Below are positions 2,881-43,460 of a DNA stretch of 44,014 nt, piece after piece. Where the stretch lies: positions 1 through 44,014 of IMG/VR virus record IMGVR_UViG_3300035670_000424. One strand, given 5' to 3'. Both the position numbers and the translations under genes were made by a program. Origin of the DNA: a virus. Numbering within the stretch: position 1 is the stretch's first letter; each line of letters opens with the position of its first letter. The notes below the pieces were generated by a model. That model was not told where the DNA came from, did no database searches, and saw nothing but the letters and a program-made list of their open reading frames with translations.

Positions 2881-3687
2881 TTATATAGCCCTTGAGAAAG
2901 ATGCAGCCAGCATACGGTCATCGTTGGATGAGCCGAAGTTGGCCGTGATGGTTCGTGCGGCGGCAGCAGCCGTTATATCTGAGCCAGAGCTGAACGTGTT
3001 ATTGTTACCACTCTCAAACGAGACATCGTAGTCTTCAGTAACACCTGTCCAAGTGACGCTGGTATTACCGTTAGTGTAAGCAATGGCAACATGCGCCCCG
3101 TCTGCACCGACATTCAGACTCCCTGATGGATCAGTAGAGTCGATGCTGAGCGTGTCGAGCGGTGTGATGGACGATAGTGATCCCGTCAGCGCCCATACGG
3201 ACACGGCGTTTCTCTGTGAACCGCCAGACAAGGTGATCACAATGTCAGCAGTGGTTCCAGAGGTAACAGGGGCATTTGTGATGAACAGCGCCAGATGGTT
3301 GAGCGTTGCCTGATGCACGAGGCGGGTGGTAGCTGCGCCACCCACTGTACAGGTATTGAACGTCCTGTTACCACCTTCACGACCAGCGGTGCCGACGATG
3401 ATGTACCTGTCAGCACTCGCAGTCCCGATACTCGCACCTGAGTAGGTGTAGGTTGATGAGTTGGTAGTGCTGTTGCTGTTGAACGTGTTGGTGATTGCAA
3501 GAGGGACTAGTGCGTTCTTCCTTGGTAACATCCCCATCGTCAAGGGCATCGCCAGTAGGTGTTTAGAGAACTCTATGTTCTCAGGCTTGATGATCGAAGG
3601 CTTGGGCGGGAGATATAACTCCCCCGCCTGTGCCGGAATGATCAAGCCACTTGCGACAGTAGCCGCGAGTAGAGCTTTCTTGATCAT
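2881..3687 (-). CDS. Secreted beta-rich protein after the tail fibre
   Basis: The start at 3687 overlaps the fibre stop (TAATG), giving 268 residues. The N-terminus is a classic Sec signal peptide: MIKKALLAATVASGLIIPAQA, with a basic n-region, a hydrophobic core and an AQA cleavage site near residue 22. The mature part is rich in Ser, Thr, Gly and Asn and lacks long helices, as in receptor-binding or cell-surface beta domains. It could be a virion protein, a periplasmic or surface protein changing the infected cell, or a lysogenic conversion factor. A longer reading upstream would lie inside the fibre gene and lose the signal peptide, so it is rejected. Confidence 0.8.
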   Translation of the reverse strand: MIKKALLAATVASGLIIPAQAGELYLPPKPSIIKPENIEFSKHLLAMPLTMGMLPRKNALVPLAITNTFNSNSTTNSSTYTYSGASIGTASADRYIIVGTAGREGGNRTFNTCTVGGAATTRLVHQATLNHLALFITNAPVTSGTTADIVITLSGGSQRNAVSVWALTGSLSSITPLDTLSIDSTDPSGSLNVGADGAHVAIAYTNGNTSVTWTGVTEDYDVSFESGNNNTFSSGSDITAAAAARTITANFGSSNDDRMLAASFSRAI

Positions 3688-6287
3688 TAGGTAGTAATGT
3701 CTCCGATGAGGACCCACTCGTCCGTACCAATCTTCAACAGAGTGGCACCAGAGTACTGTCCAGTGAGTTTGAGCTTTGAACCGGAAGACCGGATGGTGAC
3801 ACTAGCGCCACCCACAGTGACCTGACCAGCACCCATCTGGATGATGTCGATGCGGGTATCCAACGGGAACGCAACGGATGCGTTGGTCGGAATGGTCAGC
3901 GTGATTGCAGAGGCATTGTTAAGGCGCACTGCCTTACCAGCATCAGCAAGCACCAGCGTGTAGGTCGTACCACTCTGAGCGTTGGCCGGGACAGTACGAA
4001 CAGTGGCAGCTACATTTCCTGTAGTTGCAATCTGAGTTGTATCAGTCCAAGCAGAAGCCGTAGGAGCCGCTGGTGTTCCAGTGAACGTAGGAGATGCCAG
4101 AGGCGCACGGGAAGTGTCAGTCGGGTGAACGTGATCCTGCCGCGCAAAGCGCAGGGACGTACCAACAGCCACGGAACCATTCATCAACGGGTTGGCTGAG
4201 CCAGCCTGTGCAACAAAGAAGGCAGTTGTAGCAAGCTGGGTAGTATTGGTATCCGCTGCGGCTGTAGGAGCCGTAGGAGTACCAGTAAGGGCCGGGGATG
4301 CTAGGTTAGCCTTGGCATTCAACGCATTCTGAAGGTCTGTCTGACTCGATAGAGTACCAGTGATGGAACCCCATGATGCACCGCTCTGAACATCAGCCGA
4401 CAACACACCGCCGCTGAGCGTCAGACGCGCACCGATAGACAACCATTCGAAGTTGTTGGTGCTATCGTTCCAGTAGACAAGACGGGTAGCATTCGGGTCC
4501 GTTAGCGCCGTCAGTTCGGTCAGTACAGCGTTGGCCGCTTGCTTACCATCGAGCGTTGTCTGGAGGTTGGTTACATCGCTAATCGCATGAGTGTGCGAGG
4601 ACGCAGCCTTACCATCGAGAGCAGTCTGGAGACCAGTGACATCCGAGATAGCGTGGGAATGCGAGGTAGACGCCTTACCGTCTAACTCAGTCTGGAGGTT
4701 GGTCACATCGTTGATCGAGTGACTGTGCGTCTCGGGAGGGAACGTAGTTGGCTTCGAAGTCACACCAGACCACGGAACGCTATCGGCAGTGTCAGCCGCA
4801 GCCACCTTACCGTCATCGTTCGGGTCATAGACGGACTTCACCATGTCACCCGCACCGGAACCAGCGGCACCCACGTTACCCGTTCTGGAGAACCAAAGGT
4901 ACACGGTGTCATCGTTACCGGGGAGCGTACCAGCAATATACGCAACAGGCACCTTGCGGTAGCCCGTCATGTTCGTCACGGCACCGTTCACTTGGAACAG
5001 GATGTAGTTGTTGAAGCCAGCGGGCTTGATGTGAAGCAGACCACGGTTAGCCGTAGTCGTGCTGTCATCCAAGCTGTCCAGCCAGTTCGTCATGCTGTTG
5101 GCTTCATCATCGAGGTCATCGACGTAAAGCTCAGTCACGGACGAGATTGTGCCGCTGTTGAACCTGATCTTACCATTACCGGGATCAGCGTCAGTGGTGG
5201 TCGTGGAGAAGACGTAGCGGATACCAGCGTCTCGTCCATCAACGCCAGCGTTACCCTGCGGTCCCTGTGCTCCTGTTGCACCCTGAGGACCTGTAGCGCC
5301 CTGAGGTCCGGTCTCACCTTGGATGCCTTGGATACCCTGCGGACCAGTGAGGTTGTCCCTCAGCGTCCACGTAGTCGCATCGGTCTTCTCATAGAGATCG
5401 CCGTTGCTATCATCGATGTACCAATCGGTCGCCTTACCGAGACCAGACGCGGGAACGCCAGTGCCGGAAGTGATCACCGAGCCTTGGATACCTTGGATAC
5501 CCTGAGGCCCCTGAGGACCTTCCGGTCCCTGTTCACCCTGCGGTCCCTGATCGCCTTGAATGCCTTGGATGCCCTGTGGACCAATAGGACCCTGTGGGCC
5601 GACTTCGCCCTGCGGACCAGTGATGTTACCTACGTTCGTCCACTGATTATCATTCCAGACGTAGAGCGCACCAGCAATCAGGTAGCCGTCACCATTGGTG
5701 TTACCGGAGGAGGGTAGCGATGGAACGTCTGCAACGGAGCCAAGGATGCGGACGCTTTCACCAGCGGGACCTTGGATGCCCTGCGGACCTTGAGCGCCAG
5801 TAGCGCCCTGCGGACCCGTGGCACCAGTAGCACCAGTGGGACCGATGATCGAGCGAAGGAACGTCCAGCTAGACGGCCCCTTGCGATACAGTCCACCAGC
5901 AGTCGTATCGATGTAGAAGTCACCCTCGATGCCCACAGAGGTAGACGGAGCGCCAGAACCAGTGTGCCAAGAGGGAGACCAATCCTCGCTCTCTTCGGCC
6001 AGATAAAGGGCCTGTCGGATGGCGAGGTTGAGATCGGTAGTCTGCCACCGAGCCTTCGGAGAGAAGTCCACCAGAGGGGTCGAAGGCGTCTGACGGCGAA
6101 AGAGGATTGCCTGTCCGTTCGACGGGGCAGAGTTGAATAGAATAGTGTTCTCGTTAGTCCACACGTAAGCCGTGGACAGCACGTTATTCAGATACACCTT
6201 CACATGCGATTGCTCGATGTAAGGGAAGGGTACGCTGAATGAAGTGGTACTACCGTTCCCGGTGTACCGTTCATAGCTGTTAGCCAT
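3687..6287 (-). CDS. Tail fibre protein with gp17-like N-terminus and collagen-like repeats
   Basis: This 866-residue fibre binds the host receptor. Residues 1-100 match the T7 gp17 tail-attachment domain (MANSYERYTGNG, then NGQAILFRRQTP and ARWQTTDLNLAIRQ). Three collagen-like Gly-X-Y blocks rich in GPQG and GIQG follow near residues 150-180, 225-272 and 315-355. Next come repeats of a HSHAISDVTGLQTALDGK type near 520-600, repeated TPTAPTA-type linkers, and a beta-rich C-terminal tip. A strong ribosome site (AAGGGAC) precedes the ATG. The collagen repeats probably form a trimeric stalk. The C-terminal tip should set host range. Confidence 0.93.
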   Translation of the reverse strand: MANSYERYTGNGSTTSFSVPFPYIEQSHVKVYLNNVLSTAYVWTNENTILFNSAPSNGQAILFRRQTPSTPLVDFSPKARWQTTDLNLAIRQALYLAEESEDWSPSWHTGSGAPSTSVGIEGDFYIDTTAGGLYRKGPSSWTFLRSIIGPTGATGATGPQGATGAQGPQGIQGPAGESVRILGSVADVPSLPSSGNTNGDGYLIAGALYVWNDNQWTNVGNITGPQGEVGPQGPIGPQGIQGIQGDQGPQGEQGPEGPQGPQGIQGIQGSVITSGTGVPASGLGKATDWYIDDSNGDLYEKTDATTWTLRDNLTGPQGIQGIQGETGPQGATGPQGATGAQGPQGNAGVDGRDAGIRYVFSTTTTDADPGNGKIRFNSGTISSVTELYVDDLDDEANSMTNWLDSLDDSTTTANRGLLHIKPAGFNNYILFQVNGAVTNMTGYRKVPVAYIAGTLPGNDDTVYLWFSRTGNVGAAGSGAGDMVKSVYDPNDDGKVAAADTADSVPWSGVTSKPTTFPPETHSHSINDVTNLQTELDGKASTSHSHAISDVTGLQTALDGKAASSHTHAISDVTNLQTTLDGKQAANAVLTELTALTDPNATRLVYWNDSTNNFEWLSIGARLTLSGGVLSADVQSGASWGSITGTLSSQTDLQNALNAKANLASPALTGTPTAPTAAADTNTTQLATTAFFVAQAGSANPLMNGSVAVGTSLRFARQDHVHPTDTSRAPLASPTFTGTPAAPTASAWTDTTQIATTGNVAATVRTVPANAQSGTTYTLVLADAGKAVRLNNASAITLTIPTNASVAFPLDTRIDIIQMGAGQVTVGGASVTIRSSGSKLKLTGQYSGATLLKIGTDEWVLIGDITT

Positions 6288-17087: not shown

Positions 17088-18026
17088 TTAGGCGCTCTTG
17101 AACTCGAAAGCGCACTCAGGACGCAGGATGCCGTGGCCGCAAGCGTACTTCGCGAGAAGCAGCGTGGCCTGACGGCGCGGGTCCCAAACGCTTTCGGAGC
17201 GAACATCCATCAGCTTGACGGTGCCGACAGCCCACGGATGCCAGCCGATGGCGACAGTCGTGGAGAAGTTGGCGCGGTAGCCAGCCGGAATGTTGGAGTT
17301 CGCGGAGTCGTTGGCCTGAGGCACCTTGTTCGACTTGACGATGGTGACGCCAGCCACGGTGCCCATCTGGCCCGTAGCGTAGCTGCCCACGCCGCCCCAA
17401 TCCTTGTTGATCAGGTCGGTCTTCTGGACCATCAGGTAGTACTGAGCGGGCTTCACACCCACATAACGCTCAGTCTCAGGGAGGCCCTTCTCATCGAAGG
17501 TCTGAGCCATCGTGTAGATGCCAGCCGCAAGCAGGGCAGCATCCGTGGCGAAGTTGGCGTTCGTGGCAGAACCGCCACCGTTGCCGCCAGTGATGGTGGC
17601 AGCAGCGCGGGCCGCGAGGACCAGGTTACGGGCCACGTTGCGGTCGTACTGGTCAGCGAGGGCTTCACCCATCTGCTTCGCGTACTCACCGCGCACATCG
17701 TAGTGGGACTTCAGTTCATCGATCTCAGCGATGTACTCGTTCGCCAGCAGAACGTCATCGATGGTGATGACGCGCTCAGCCTGGAGGATCGAGTTACGGC
17801 CCACGATCTCCGTACCCGGAGTGTGGTAACCAGCAGTCGCCGTACCGATTGCGGGGAACTGGTAGGACTTACCCTGCGAGATCGACTTCACACGGTGCTT
17901 ATCACCGAAGACGTTGGCAAGGTTGAAGGAGGCGAGGACTTCGCCAGAGAACATCTTGAGGAACAGGGCTTCCACATCGTTGGCCCCGTTGACCTGACCG
18001 ATGCGGGTCAGTGTCGCGTTAGACAT
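17088..18026 (-). CDS. Major capsid protein (gp10A-like)
   Basis: This is the HK97-fold shell protein, 312 residues (T7 gp10A: 345). Typical features are the N-terminal MSNATLTRIGQ, the segment FSGEVLASFN, SISQGKSYQFPAIG (E-loop region), and the helix DVRGEYAKQMGEALADQYD (spine helix). It is flanked by a long structured leader upstream and a strong terminator downstream, so expression should be high and separately controlled. A good ribosome site (CGGAGATAACTT) precedes the ATG. Confidence 0.97.
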   Translation of the reverse strand: MSNATLTRIGQVNGANDVEALFLKMFSGEVLASFNLANVFGDKHRVKSISQGKSYQFPAIGTATAGYHTPGTEIVGRNSILQAERVITIDDVLLANEYIAEIDELKSHYDVRGEYAKQMGEALADQYDRNVARNLVLAARAAATITGGNGGGSATNANFATDAALLAAGIYTMAQTFDEKGLPETERYVGVKPAQYYLMVQKTDLINKDWGGVGSYATGQMGTVAGVTIVKSNKVPQANDSANSNIPAGYRANFSTTVAIGWHPWAVGTVKLMDVRSESVWDPRRQATLLLAKYACGHGILRPECAFEFKSA

Positions 18027-18208
18027 AAGTTATCTCCGTGTAAGGATTGAGTTGGTTTTCACCTTCTCGAAACTCACACGCTGCACAGCGAGATTGTCCT
18101 GTCCGTATCCCCTCAGGGACACAGTTGCAGGGTCAAGAGTATCGCGTAGTGGTTCTGTAGAAGTCACCGTCGAGAGGACAGTGTGACTATAGAACACGGA
18201 GAGAAAAG

Positions 18209-18315
18209 CTGATGCGGCAGGATGGTAAGCCCTATACCTCCCGGTTTCTTCGGAGGCCCACTGCCTAGATCGATGGCGCTAAGTCTGTACATCTGTTTGA
18301 CAGACGCCGCATCAG
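18209..18315 (-). ncRNA. Cloverleaf-like RNA structure upstream of the capsid gene
   Basis: A 10-bp perfect stem closes this 107-nt element: CTGATGCGGC at 18209-18218 and GCCGCATCAG at 18306-18315. Inside are a 6-bp hairpin, GTCTGT/ACAGAC (18283-18305, directly abutting the closing stem), a 5-bp hairpin CCTCC/GGAGG (18237-18256), and weaker helices GCC/GGC (18263-18277) and GGTA/TACC (18224-18238, competing with the CCTCC helix). Several helices inside one long closing stem resemble a multi-branch RNA. No known RNA family is recognised, and transcription is assumed from gene direction. Confidence 0.5.
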
Positions 18316-18322
18316 GGAACGA

Positions 18323-18389
18323 TGTGTGGAGTTTGGGCCAGATGAGGTTACCCACCACCCGGAAGGATTGTCGCCCTCCCCTCCACACA
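18323..18389 (-). ncRNA. Stem-loop directly after the HslV-like gene
   Basis: A 9-bp perfect stem (TGTGTGGAG at 18323-18331 with CTCCACACA at 18381-18389) closes a 49-nt loop that can add a GGGC/GCCC helix (18335-18338 with 18373-18376). It begins seven bases after the HslV-like stop codon and has no T-run. An RNase III-type processing site or a transcript-protecting structure is more likely than a terminator. Confidence 0.45.
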
Positions 18390-18395
18390 GGGTCA

Positions 18396-18824
18396 TTATT
18401 TGGAAATCTTGAGTGTCTTCACCGGAAGCCCGGTAGACGTATCTATCTTGGCTGCAATCTTCACAGCCTCAGTTGCAGTGGCTCCAGCGTACATCGCGGC
18501 GAGCGCATAAGGCGCACCACTGCCGATGGCAAAGAACTTAGCACCGCGAGGAACAGGCAGTACACTCCCATTCTCCATCTCTCGTACCCGACCTCGCGGG
18601 TTGATGATCAGTGCGCTGTACTCACCCTTGGGAGGAGGGTCTTCATCGTCACCACTACGCACCCAATCAATGAATGCCTGACAAGCGGCGACTGCACCAG
18701 CAGTGCCAATCAGATGGTCACCGATGCGCCTGATCTTCTGGTAGCTACCGTGGACCTTGGTGGACCCGAGAGTGACAAGACTGTCACTCGCGAGGACACC
18801 GTCCCGGTATGCGATGGTTGTCAT
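18396..18824 (-). CDS. HslV/proteasome-beta-like Ntn hydrolase
   Basis: This 142-residue protein resembles bacterial HslV, the peptidase of the HslUV complex. It begins MTTIAYRDG, so removing Met would leave Thr as the N-terminal nucleophile, as in HslV (MTTIVSVRR). The following VTLGSTKVHG and QKIRRI parallel HslV ATLGNTVMKG and KKVRRL. The catalytic Lys33 and Asp17 of HslV correspond to K30 and D14 here. Later segments with IGTAGAVAACQAF and FFAIGSGAPYALAA also fit the fold. The chosen ATG at 18824 overlaps the upstream stop (ATGA) and alone places Thr second. No HslU-type ATPase is encoded. Roles in capsid maturation or protein turnover are only inferred. Confidence 0.85.
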   Translation of the reverse strand: MTTIAYRDGVLASDSLVTLGSTKVHGSYQKIRRIGDHLIGTAGAVAACQAFIDWVRSGDDEDPPPKGEYSALIINPRGRVREMENGSVLPVPRGAKFFAIGSGAPYALAAMYAGATATEAVKIAAKIDTSTGLPVKTLKISK

Positions 18825-19081
18825 TCGCACCTGCGCTTTCTATGGTTCCACTTACCGCCACGAAGCTGGCACTTACGCCAAGCTTCTTCATCCTTAGGGT
18901 CCATCCTCTTGAGGACAGTAGCCATGACGGCTCCGACAATCAGTGGACGGAGTTCTTTGAATGCAAGCTTAGCAAAACCAACCCACGTGGCTTGACTGCG
19001 GAACAAGAGGATCGAGCCTATGACGGCACCGATCAGCGCAGCAATGACGAATGCGACGATCAGCACCGTGTCCATAGACAT
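18821..19081 (-). CDS. Small membrane protein in the lysis cluster
   Basis: This 86-residue protein has a strong N-terminal membrane segment (TVLIVAFVIAALIGAVIGSILL, near residues 5-26 read with its flanks), a weaker hydrophobic segment near LIVGAVMATVL (47-57) and a very basic C-terminus with two cysteines. It sits between the holin candidate and the HslV-like gene. A second holin, an antiholin or an inner-membrane spanin-like protein are all possible; no long periplasmic coiled coil is seen, which argues against a typical Rz. Confidence 0.68.
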   Translation of the reverse strand: MSMDTVLIVAFVIAALIGAVIGSILLFRSQATWVGFAKLAFKELRPLIVGAVMATVLKRMDPKDEEAWRKCQLRGGKWNHRKRRCE

Positions 19082-19090
19082 ATATCAGCC

Positions 19091-19267
19091 TTACTGAGAA
19101 GGAGACTTGGAAACGCCGCTGATGGCGTCACGGAGAGCGGCTACGATGCCCGTAGCAAGCAGAGCATTGATCGCCTCAGTCAGGCCGAGATCACCGACGA
19201 GGTACTGCGCGATCACCGAGATGGCCGCGACACCCGTCAGGATGTAGGTCTTATAACCCTTGAGCAT
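19091..19267 (-). CDS. Holin-like small membrane protein, 58 aa
   Basis: A short gene with an excellent ribosome site (AAGGAGTAACT before ATG). The product starts MLKGYKTYILTGVAAISVIA, with a basic start and a membrane segment, then a second hydrophobic segment (AINALLATGIVAALRDAI) and a serine-rich tail. The two-segment layout and the place right after the M15 endolysin fit a small holin that releases or permits endolysin export. Function is inferred from topology and neighbours. Confidence 0.75.
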   Translation of the reverse strand: MLKGYKTYILTGVAAISVIAQYLVGDLGLTEAINALLATGIVAALRDAISGVSKSPSQ

Positions 19268-19276
19268 AGTTACTCC

Positions 19277-19831
19277 TTACGGCAATCCAGCAAGGAGACC
19301 CTGCGACTGCCACTGTTTGAGTTTGTTCACGCTGATCTCAAAGTGCATCCCATCTTCCTTGCGGAAGTGAGCGCCCCAATACCAGCCGTGCTTATTGAAA
19401 ATCGGAGCGATGAGCGTCAGGCCATACTGAACCTTGCCATCGCCATAGTCATCGAGGTCACCATCGATCTTCAAGTCGATAGCAGTACCCCAAGAGTGAT
19501 TGCTGATAGAACGCTTGGACCCTCGCACCAATCGGCAGCACAGCATACCAGCAGAAGACAGCTTCATGTCTGGATACTTCTGTGTCACTTCCGTCATTAC
19601 ATCACGGAGTGAACGCACAGCCAGATCAAAGCCTGTCACGCGGAATGGACCGACACTTGCCAGTACCATTCTCCGCGCCAGCTTCTTGTTGGTAACAGTC
19701 CCACACTGCTGAGTGTAACGGGACGAAGGCGCTCCGAGGAGAACCTTCATCATGCCGTTAGTGGGACTTTGGAGATTACGATTGATGTCGAAGGGTACAG
19801 CGACTTCGCGCGTGTACTTCGTTACGGTCAT
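19277..19831 (-). CDS. Endolysin, M15-type peptidase (VanY-like)
   Basis: This 184-residue protein is likely the peptidoglycan hydrolase that lyses the cell. It has the zinc-site pattern of peptidase family M15: SNHSWGTAIDLK (H112, D119) and GMHFE (H163). The domain covers about residues 60-170 and nothing resembling an exporter signal precedes it, so it should need a holin. In T7 lysis uses an amidase (gp3.5) in the replication block; here the lysis enzyme is among head genes between scaffold and capsid. The start overlaps the scaffold stop by one base. Confidence 0.88.
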   Translation of the reverse strand: MTVTKYTREVAVPFDINRNLQSPTNGMMKVLLGAPSSRYTQQCGTVTNKKLARRMVLASVGPFRVTGFDLAVRSLRDVMTEVTQKYPDMKLSSAGMLCCRLVRGSKRSISNHSWGTAIDLKIDGDLDDYGDGKVQYGLTLIAPIFNKHGWYWGAHFRKEDGMHFEISVNKLKQWQSQGLLAGLP

Positions 19832-20595: not shown

Positions 20596-20789
20596 TAGAG
20601 GTTCTCGATCACGATCACCTGACCGGACGGCGTCTTGAACTCACGCTTTCCGACCACACGGCGTTCAGAGACATTCGGGGCAGTGGCTTCAGCGACAGGT
20701 GCAGCTTCCTGAGGAGCCGCAGCTTTCGCAGCTTCCTCAAGAGCCACCGTATCGGTGATGCCGAGTTTCGTTAGATTGGCGTTAGCCAC
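20595..20789 (-). CDS. Small protein between portal and scaffold
   Basis: The GTG start at 20789 overlaps the portal stop and has AAGGA seven bases upstream, giving 64 residues: an N-terminal NANLTKLGITDTVALEEAA, an alanine and proline rich middle, and a conserved-looking end (TPSGQVIVIENL). An ATG at 20822 would add 11 residues but has a poor ribosome site. Small proteins of this form are common before scaffold genes in T7-like phages. No function is known to me. Confidence 0.75.
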   Translation of the reverse strand: MANANLTKLGITDTVALEEAAKAAAPQEAAPVAEATAPNVSERRVVGKREFKTPSGQVIVIENL

Positions 20790-22812: not shown

Positions 22813-22832
22813 TTATGGTGGCCTTAAGGGTC
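22813..22832 (-). promoter_or_regulatory. Phage RNA polymerase promoter candidate, late (virion) block
   Basis: Read on the minus strand the motif is GACCCTTAAGGCCACCATAA. It occurs three times in the window, always in a gap between gene blocks. Its 3' part, CACCATA, matches the core CACTATA of T7 promoters in six of seven positions, so the start point is probably the base after CATA. It would drive the portal-to-terminase genes. Confidence 0.8.
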
Positions 22833-34288: not shown

Positions 34289-34308
34289 TAATGGTGGCCT
34301 TAAGGGTC
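34289..34308 (-). promoter_or_regulatory. Phage RNA polymerase promoter candidate, middle block
   Basis: The minus strand reads GACCCTTAAGGCCACCATTA, differing from the other two copies at one base. It lies 15 bases beyond the RNA polymerase stop and 30 bases before the next start, so the polymerase would read the replication genes from here, as T7 polymerase does from phi1.1 and following promoters. Confidence 0.8.
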
Positions 34309-42625: not shown

Positions 42626-42822
42626 GGTGGCCTAGTGTGGCCCATAGGTGGCGCATGTGGTGCGGCATGTGTCCAGTGTTGTGGGCATAAGGTGACCTAG
42701 TGTCCAGTATTGTGGACCGTATGCGGCGCATGTGGTGGCCTAGTGGTGCCGATAGGTGCGGCATGTGGTGGCCTAGTGTGTGCGTATGTGGCCGATAGGT
42801 GGCCTAGTGTGTGCGTATGTGG
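42626..42822. repeat. Field of short repeats with core GGTGGCCTAGTG
   Basis: The 12-mer GGTGGCCTAGTG (one copy GGTGACCTAGTG) occurs at 42626, 42691, 42734, 42767 and 42798. The last two belong to an exact 25-base repeat (42767-42791, 42798-42822) with a 31-base period. Between them are GCGGCATGTG and CGATAGGTG units. On the minus strand the core reads CACTAGGCCACC, sharing AGGCCACC with the phage promoter. Confidence 0.85.
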
Positions 42823-43440: not shown

Positions 43441-43460
43441 TTATGGTGGCCTTAAGGGTC
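43441..43460 (-). promoter_or_regulatory. Phage RNA polymerase promoter candidate near the genome end
   Basis: Same 20-base motif as at 22.8 kb, GACCCTTAAGGCCACCATAA on the minus strand. It lies 12 bases after the terminase stop and ahead of the repeat region, in the place of phiOR/phiOL of T7, promoters linked to replication and packaging. Confidence 0.78.

Follow-up and report, generated by a model that had tools for sequence, protein, structure and literature searches.

A segment of about 175 nt directly ahead of the major capsid protein gene of a T7-like phage is best read as a member of an undescribed family of structured RNAs that precede the capsid gene in many Autographiviridae. This leader occupies positions 18027-18202 on the minus strand of the window, i.e., the entire analyzed record of 44,014 bp, which possesses identical ends of 127 bp, and it is composed of three parts (P1, P2 and P3). 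The leader is structured and conserved: compensatory substitutions are found in P1, P2 and P3, and the element occurs in a consistent position before the same gene, as is characteristic of structured cis-regulatory mRNA leaders. It probably controls the timing or the strength of capsid protein production. Our preferred interpretation, to which we assign a probability of roughly 60%, is that of a cis-acting element through which the Shine-Dalgarno (SD) sequence of the capsid gene would be paired in long late transcripts, while a cut in P2 would yield the capsid mRNA.

The late genes are encoded on the minus strand in the order portal, head-assembly (scaffold-type) protein, HslV-family peptidase and major capsid protein. 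The capsid gene served by the leader (17088-18026; 312 amino acids) corresponds to the PHROG 267 major head protein (E = 8e-80), and its product is 53.7% identical to the capsid protein of the Rhizobium phage Pasto. The gene for the HslV/proteasome-family peptidase (18396-18830, minus strand; PHROG 1040, E = 7e-44; Pfam Proteasome, E = 8e-8) sits between the scaffold-type and the capsid genes and is separated from the latter by a gap of 369 nt (18027-18395). The minus strand of this gap folds with an energy of -139.6 kcal/mol, as compared with -117.0 ± 5.3 kcal/mol for shuffled sequences (z = -4.2; 0/100). Since the plus strand also attains a z-score of -3.3, as is expected for perfect stems, folding energy alone cannot assign the strand. 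The gap consists of two halves, one that is conserved (from 18027 to about 18202/18208) and one that is variable among relatives (about 18203-18395). Elsewhere in the window, a tail fibre of the T7 type, in which Pfam identifies collagen triple-helix and phage tail repeats, is encoded at 3687-6287 on the minus strand, and short degenerate tandem repeats (GGTGGCCTAGTGTGGCCCATAGGTGGCGCATGTGGTG) are present near the right end of the record (42626-42813).

A previous sequence-only reading of this DNA had proposed selected RNA structure ahead of the capsid gene and had assigned it to two elements, each closed by a perfect stem. Both stems are present at the positions given there, the layout of the gap is as described, and the gap folds better than its shuffled counterparts. 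On the minus strand, the 10-bp stem is formed by CTGATGCGGC (18315-18306) and GCCGCATCAG (18218-18209); it encloses several hairpins, followed by CUUUUCUCUC, and this first element (18209-18315) folds with a z-score of -2.9 (2/200 shuffles as good). The 9-bp stem is formed by TGTGTGGAG (18389-18381) and CTCCACACA (18331-18323); together with two hairpins it makes up the second element (18323-18389, minus strand), whose fold, calculated for 18318-18394, has a z-score of -2.6 (3/200 shuffles as good). Both elements lie in the variable slot, and the two stems were absent from every fetched locus of the relatives, so that they were rejected as the conserved element; they may represent lineage-specific, tRNA-sized stable RNAs. 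The notion of selected RNA structure ahead of the capsid gene is strongly supported, but in the other half of the gap: the conservation and covariation that the two named stems lack are found in P1, P2 and P3 of the adjacent leader. The roles envisioned in the sequence-only reading, a translation control element, a processing site or an unknown phage RNA motif, are all compatible with the data when they are transferred to that leader (18033-18202).

The close relatives of the window phage (loci L002-L007 and L023), whose capsid proteins are 87-93% identical to its own, can be aligned with the window as far as the HslV-family gene extends; the alignment is then lost and resumes at about 18208, from where it continues to the capsid gene. 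The cargo of this pre-leader slot, equivalent to 18203-18395 of the window, varies among autographivirids between hairpins, tRNAs and genes, those for HNH endonucleases among them. A hairpin followed by a U-rich sequence is found in L003 and L023, a gene of 280 amino acids plus a hairpin in L006, a tRNA-Met in L011, a tRNA-Asn in phages LUZ100, RHEph01 and RHEph21, and an HNH endonuclease gene in CRP-804 and CRP-403. A tRNA is located within 700 nt upstream in 32 of the 245 loci; none was found in the slot of the window itself. Sequences resembling tRNAs, with a T-arm (GGTTCGAGTCC-type) and without a canonical cloverleaf, are situated just 5' of the capsid leader in L008-L010 (about 300-150 nt before the capsid start) and in L335 (P-SSP7; about 20630-20680), and ARAGORN made no tRNA call for those of L008-L010. 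In several relatives, the capsid gene holds group I introns (RF00028; 74-85 bits) close to its start, at about codon 52-56 (L023, 3139-3728; L229, L230 and L231, 840-1451; L284, 836-1449), and the insert in L023 also encodes an HNH-like reading frame. In L157, a match to the abiF RNA exactly at its gathering score (37 bits; 363-422) lies upstream of a tRNA-Phe and an interrupted capsid gene.

The leader can be aligned in all relatives of the window phage, with identities to the window of 71-95%, values similar to those of the flanking genes. A coding gene at this position, which the sequence-only reading had named as a finding that would speak against its proposal, is ruled out for the leader by single-base insertions and deletions between relatives across its length. 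The gap has no DNA match in annotated phages. The same leader layout precedes the capsid gene in phages of Rhizobium, Bordetella, Pseudomonas, Roseobacter, Prochlorococcus, Caulobacter and other hosts, and in metagenomic relatives.

P1 is a long-range stem in which the start of the leader is paired with the SD region of the capsid gene. Its 5' strand (TCTCCGTGT; 18194-18202, minus strand) forms a duplex with its 3' strand (ACACGGAGA; 18033-18041), and the latter holds the SD sequence GGAG (18034-18037), which is placed 7 nt ahead of the capsid start codon (ATG, 18026-18024). Judged from this pairing, the SD sequence would be masked in the window phage. P1 is kept via a compensatory change in L011 (TTCCGTGT/ACACGGAA), and the marine group possesses the SD-pairing stem CCUAG(A)/(U)CUAGG; phages such as BB8 have P1 in combination with no clear SD sequence. 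Because P3 was misplaced by MAFFT alignments between lineages with different stem lengths, P1 was assessed in an alignment-free manner by swapping partners among 38 lineage representatives, whose identity is below 80% in both regions and which are not all independent by descent. Cognate partners yielded -15.76 kcal/mol and permuted partners -10.76 ± 0.49 kcal/mol (0/5000), whereas the 5' regions of P1 gave nothing when paired with a control stretch of the leader (1229/5000).

P2 is a hairpin (AGUCA[CA]CUGUC-CUCUC-GACGG-UGACU; 18162-18188, minus strand) that is defined by covariation and by the match to a covariance model. It contains a 2-nt bulge of the YR type (C18183-A18182) directly 5' of a CUG whose U pairs with G; the C-G, U-G and G-C pairs are nearly invariant, and the bulge reads CA, UG or CG in 61 of 64 sequences. 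A version of P2 with the bulge drawn two positions off was dropped, as the position just before the CUG fitted all lineages. P3 (18092-18134, minus strand), which is derived from the MFE fold and from covariation, is built from GA/UC, an internal loop in which C18132 faces ACAA (18097-18094), the stem CCUG/CAGG (18128-18131/18098-18101), a distal stem (18116-18124/18103-18111) and a UGAG tetraloop (18112-18115). The single C of the internal loop is found in 63 of 64 sequences, the AYAA-type loop that it faces is conserved, and the short form of P3 is capped by a conserved YNMG tetraloop. In a set of 22 sequences that left out the relatives of the window phage, 95.8% of the cells of P2 and P3 are paired and 9 of the 14 pairs show double changes; for the chosen core, the covariation score is 0.515, as compared with 0.199 ± 0.022 for shuffled controls (0/500), which ignore relatedness, and with at most 0.105 for slid versions. 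Among 63 distinct sequences, in an alignment fitted to the model and against shuffled controls that likewise ignore relatedness, double changes were found in 11 of the 14 pairs, and the score is 0.508 versus 0.177 ± 0.011 (0/500). P2 was not recognized in the marine group, where a GACC/GGUC pseudoknot is a candidate.

The covariance model R1, built from 22 sequences without the cluster of the window phage, has a sole match in the 44-kb window, at 18068-18190 on the minus strand (E = 1.7e-4). With 24.9 bits, this match is modest; it was missed by a loose first-pass search and found by direct cmsearch. In 100 loci (491 kb), R1 produced 55 matches at E ≤ 0.05, all of them on the capsid strand and at the capsid start, and nearly all within about 200 nt upstream of it; the matches in L229 and L237 seem more distant only because the fetched match starts downstream of the interruption of the capsid gene. 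When whole records were searched, 19 of 24 contained a match, which was a single one in all but one record. Of 128 non-redundant upstream sequences, 67 contain a match to a strict P3 descriptor, which is always placed 61-111 nt ahead of the start codon; the controls (640 shuffled, 123 further-upstream and 128 reverse-strand sequences) contain none.

A mapped RNA end is available from the relative LUZ100, whose record carries ONT-cappable-seq features of 100 nt each. For terminator prediction, the authors took the stretch between -60 and +40 relative to every mapped 3' end (PMC10134795), and two features calibrate this convention: the T16 end falls into the U-run of its intrinsic terminator, and the T14 end precedes the first nucleotide of the tRNA-Asn by 1-2 nt, i.e., it lies at an RNase P site. 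The T15 end, whose position was reconstructed from these feature windows for one dataset and one relative, is located at about 21030 with an uncertainty of about 1-2 nt and thus coincides with the P2 bulge C21030-A21031. T15 figures among the termination sites in the authors' list; since the end lacks a U-run and is enclosed by P2, which continues beyond it, processing is the likelier explanation, and this suggests a cut at the P2 bulge in LUZ100. By analogy, we infer cleavage in the window phage at the homologous bulge (18182-18183, minus strand), as well as an agent that would bring it about. An intrinsic terminator (GC-rich hairpin plus U-run) was not found in the region 17900-19300 of the window.

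Three near-identical intergenic copies of GACCCTTAAGGCCACCATWA on the minus strand (22813-22832, 34289-34308 and 43441-43460) probably serve the phage RNA polymerase as promoters. The copy closest to the capsid gene on its upstream side (GACCCTTAAGGCCACCATAA; 22813-22832) lies ahead of the portal gene, and the motif is absent from the leader within 7 mismatches; as there is no copy near the capsid gene, this gene is probably expressed from a long message. The motif was not found in the fetched relatives and hence appears to be phage-specific. T7, SP6 and phiKMV, with 93, 79 and 52 nt before their capsid genes, respectively, are devoid of such a leader, and a promoter is annotated before the capsid gene of T7 and phiKMV; the leader and an adjacent promoter may therefore be alternative solutions. 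LUZ100 possesses both the leader and a promoter about 550 nt upstream, which the simple model does not need.

Under our main reading, formation of P1 in the long late transcript would lower the access of ribosomes to the capsid gene. The P2-P3 fold would be recognized and the RNA would probably be cut at the P2 bulge, an event that would separate the 5' strand of P1 from the capsid message, free the ribosome-binding site and thereby couple capsid translation to processing. P1 would open after the cut either through loss of the short 5' fragment or through displacement by ribosomes. The variable slot further upstream, which holds hairpins in the window phage and a tRNA, a hairpin or a gene in its relatives, might cap or insulate the upstream message. 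Several considerations weigh against this scheme. A cut in P2 alone leaves the 5' strand of P1, which could remain paired, and one would not intuitively expect the SD sequence to be hidden for the protein that is most abundant in the virion; furthermore, the LUZ100 end comes from a single dataset and a single relative in which it is listed as a termination site, phages such as BB8 have P1 without a clear SD sequence, and P2 escapes recognition in the marine group.

Cleavage would be unneeded if P2-P3 were bound by a protein, either of the virion (capsid, scaffold or other) or of the host, that stabilized P1 over the SD sequence. Such an autogenous or assembly-coupled repression is in keeping with the placement of the SD sequence within P1, with the invariable location of the element at the capsid gene, and with the unpaired C/AYAA loop, the YNMG tetraloop and the YR bulge, which resemble protein-contact features; it has no known binding partner and does not predict the 3' end at the P2 bulge of LUZ100, and we regard it as tentative. 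Just as tentative is a role in processing or stability, in which RNase III, RNase E or another host enzyme would cut P2, P1-P3 would shield the 5' end of the capsid mRNA, and the pairing of the SD sequence would be incidental. The two LUZ100 ends, one at the P2 bulge and the other where RNase P would process the neighbouring tRNA, would fit such a role, as would the tRNAs upstream of 32 of the 245 loci and the leaderless state of T7, SP6 and phiKMV, with their short pre-capsid regions (about 50-95 nt) and, in T7 and phiKMV, promoters. The specific covariation of P1 with the SD region is unexpected for incidental pairing, however, and, with about 10 bp, P2 would be a short substrate for RNase III.

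It is doubtful that the leader represents a new class of self-cleaving ribozymes, with the C/AYAA loop of P3 docking onto P2 and the RNA cutting itself at the YR bulge; if true, many T7-like phages would use a ribozyme to free the capsid mRNA from their long late transcript. Still less probable is a transcription terminator or attenuator, with the LUZ100 end as a true termination event. The listing of T15 as a termination site and the hairpin followed by U-rich sequence in the slot of some relatives speak for it, but there is no U-run at the LUZ100 end, P2 lies around and after this end rather than before it, and the leader of the window contains no terminator-like site. The idea that the entire gap represents an insertion free of selection, or the remnant of a gene, with structure due to chance, is hardly credible: the absence of the two named stems from all relatives and their folding only moderately better than chance would agree with it, but it is refuted for 18027-18202 by conservation, covariation and fixed position across many lineages, while it may hold for 18209-18389.

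A T7-like phage particle contains hundreds of capsid proteins and about twelve portal proteins, often encoded by one late transcript. T7 meets this imbalance with a promoter directly ahead of the capsid gene, and the leader is a candidate for an RNA-based solution in many other autographivirids, which reaches the relatives of phages of marine roseobacters, pelagibacters and cyanobacteria. Our model predicts a cut at a named dinucleotide that would alter access to the ribosome-binding site.

A search of Rfam 15, a check suggested by the sequence-only reading, revealed no family at the gathering threshold for the window, and only tRNAs and one group I intron, none of them corresponding to the leader, for 36 relatives; no Rfam ribozyme matched in either. 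A permissive scan of the window stretch returned one chance-level match on the plus strand (PhotoRC-I, E = 4.2). The element is not described in the literature searched, whose coverage excluded most subscription papers and preprints, so that an earlier description is possible. SD-pairing structured leaders are known as a kind, while the family, its architecture and its link to the capsid gene appear to be new.

Among known systems, the Mu-gpT-DE RNA motif, a candidate motif reportedly found upstream of the Mu-like major head gene, resembles the leader as a candidate structured RNA directly before a phage major head gene; it belongs to a different phage group, and no Rfam family reached the gathering score for the leader. 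The RNase III sites (R sites) of T7 are likewise hairpins with an internal loop or bulge in polycistronic RNA, which is cut there into separate messages. P2 is shorter than these sites, however, the leader adds an SD-pairing stem and P3, and gene 10 of T7 is preceded by a promoter at a distance of 63 nt rather than by a leader of this type. Translational riboswitches and ribosomal-protein leaders share with the leader a long-range stem over the SD sequence beside a conserved folded domain; in contrast to these, the leader has no known ligand or binding protein and no Rfam match, and it is linked to the capsid gene. HDV-like theta ribozymes, which adjoin phage tRNAs, are comparable as phage RNA elements near tRNA genes with an RNA end nearby. 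The leader, unlike them, lacks an Rfam ribozyme match and a recognizable HDV-like core, and it is tied to the capsid gene whether or not a tRNA is present.
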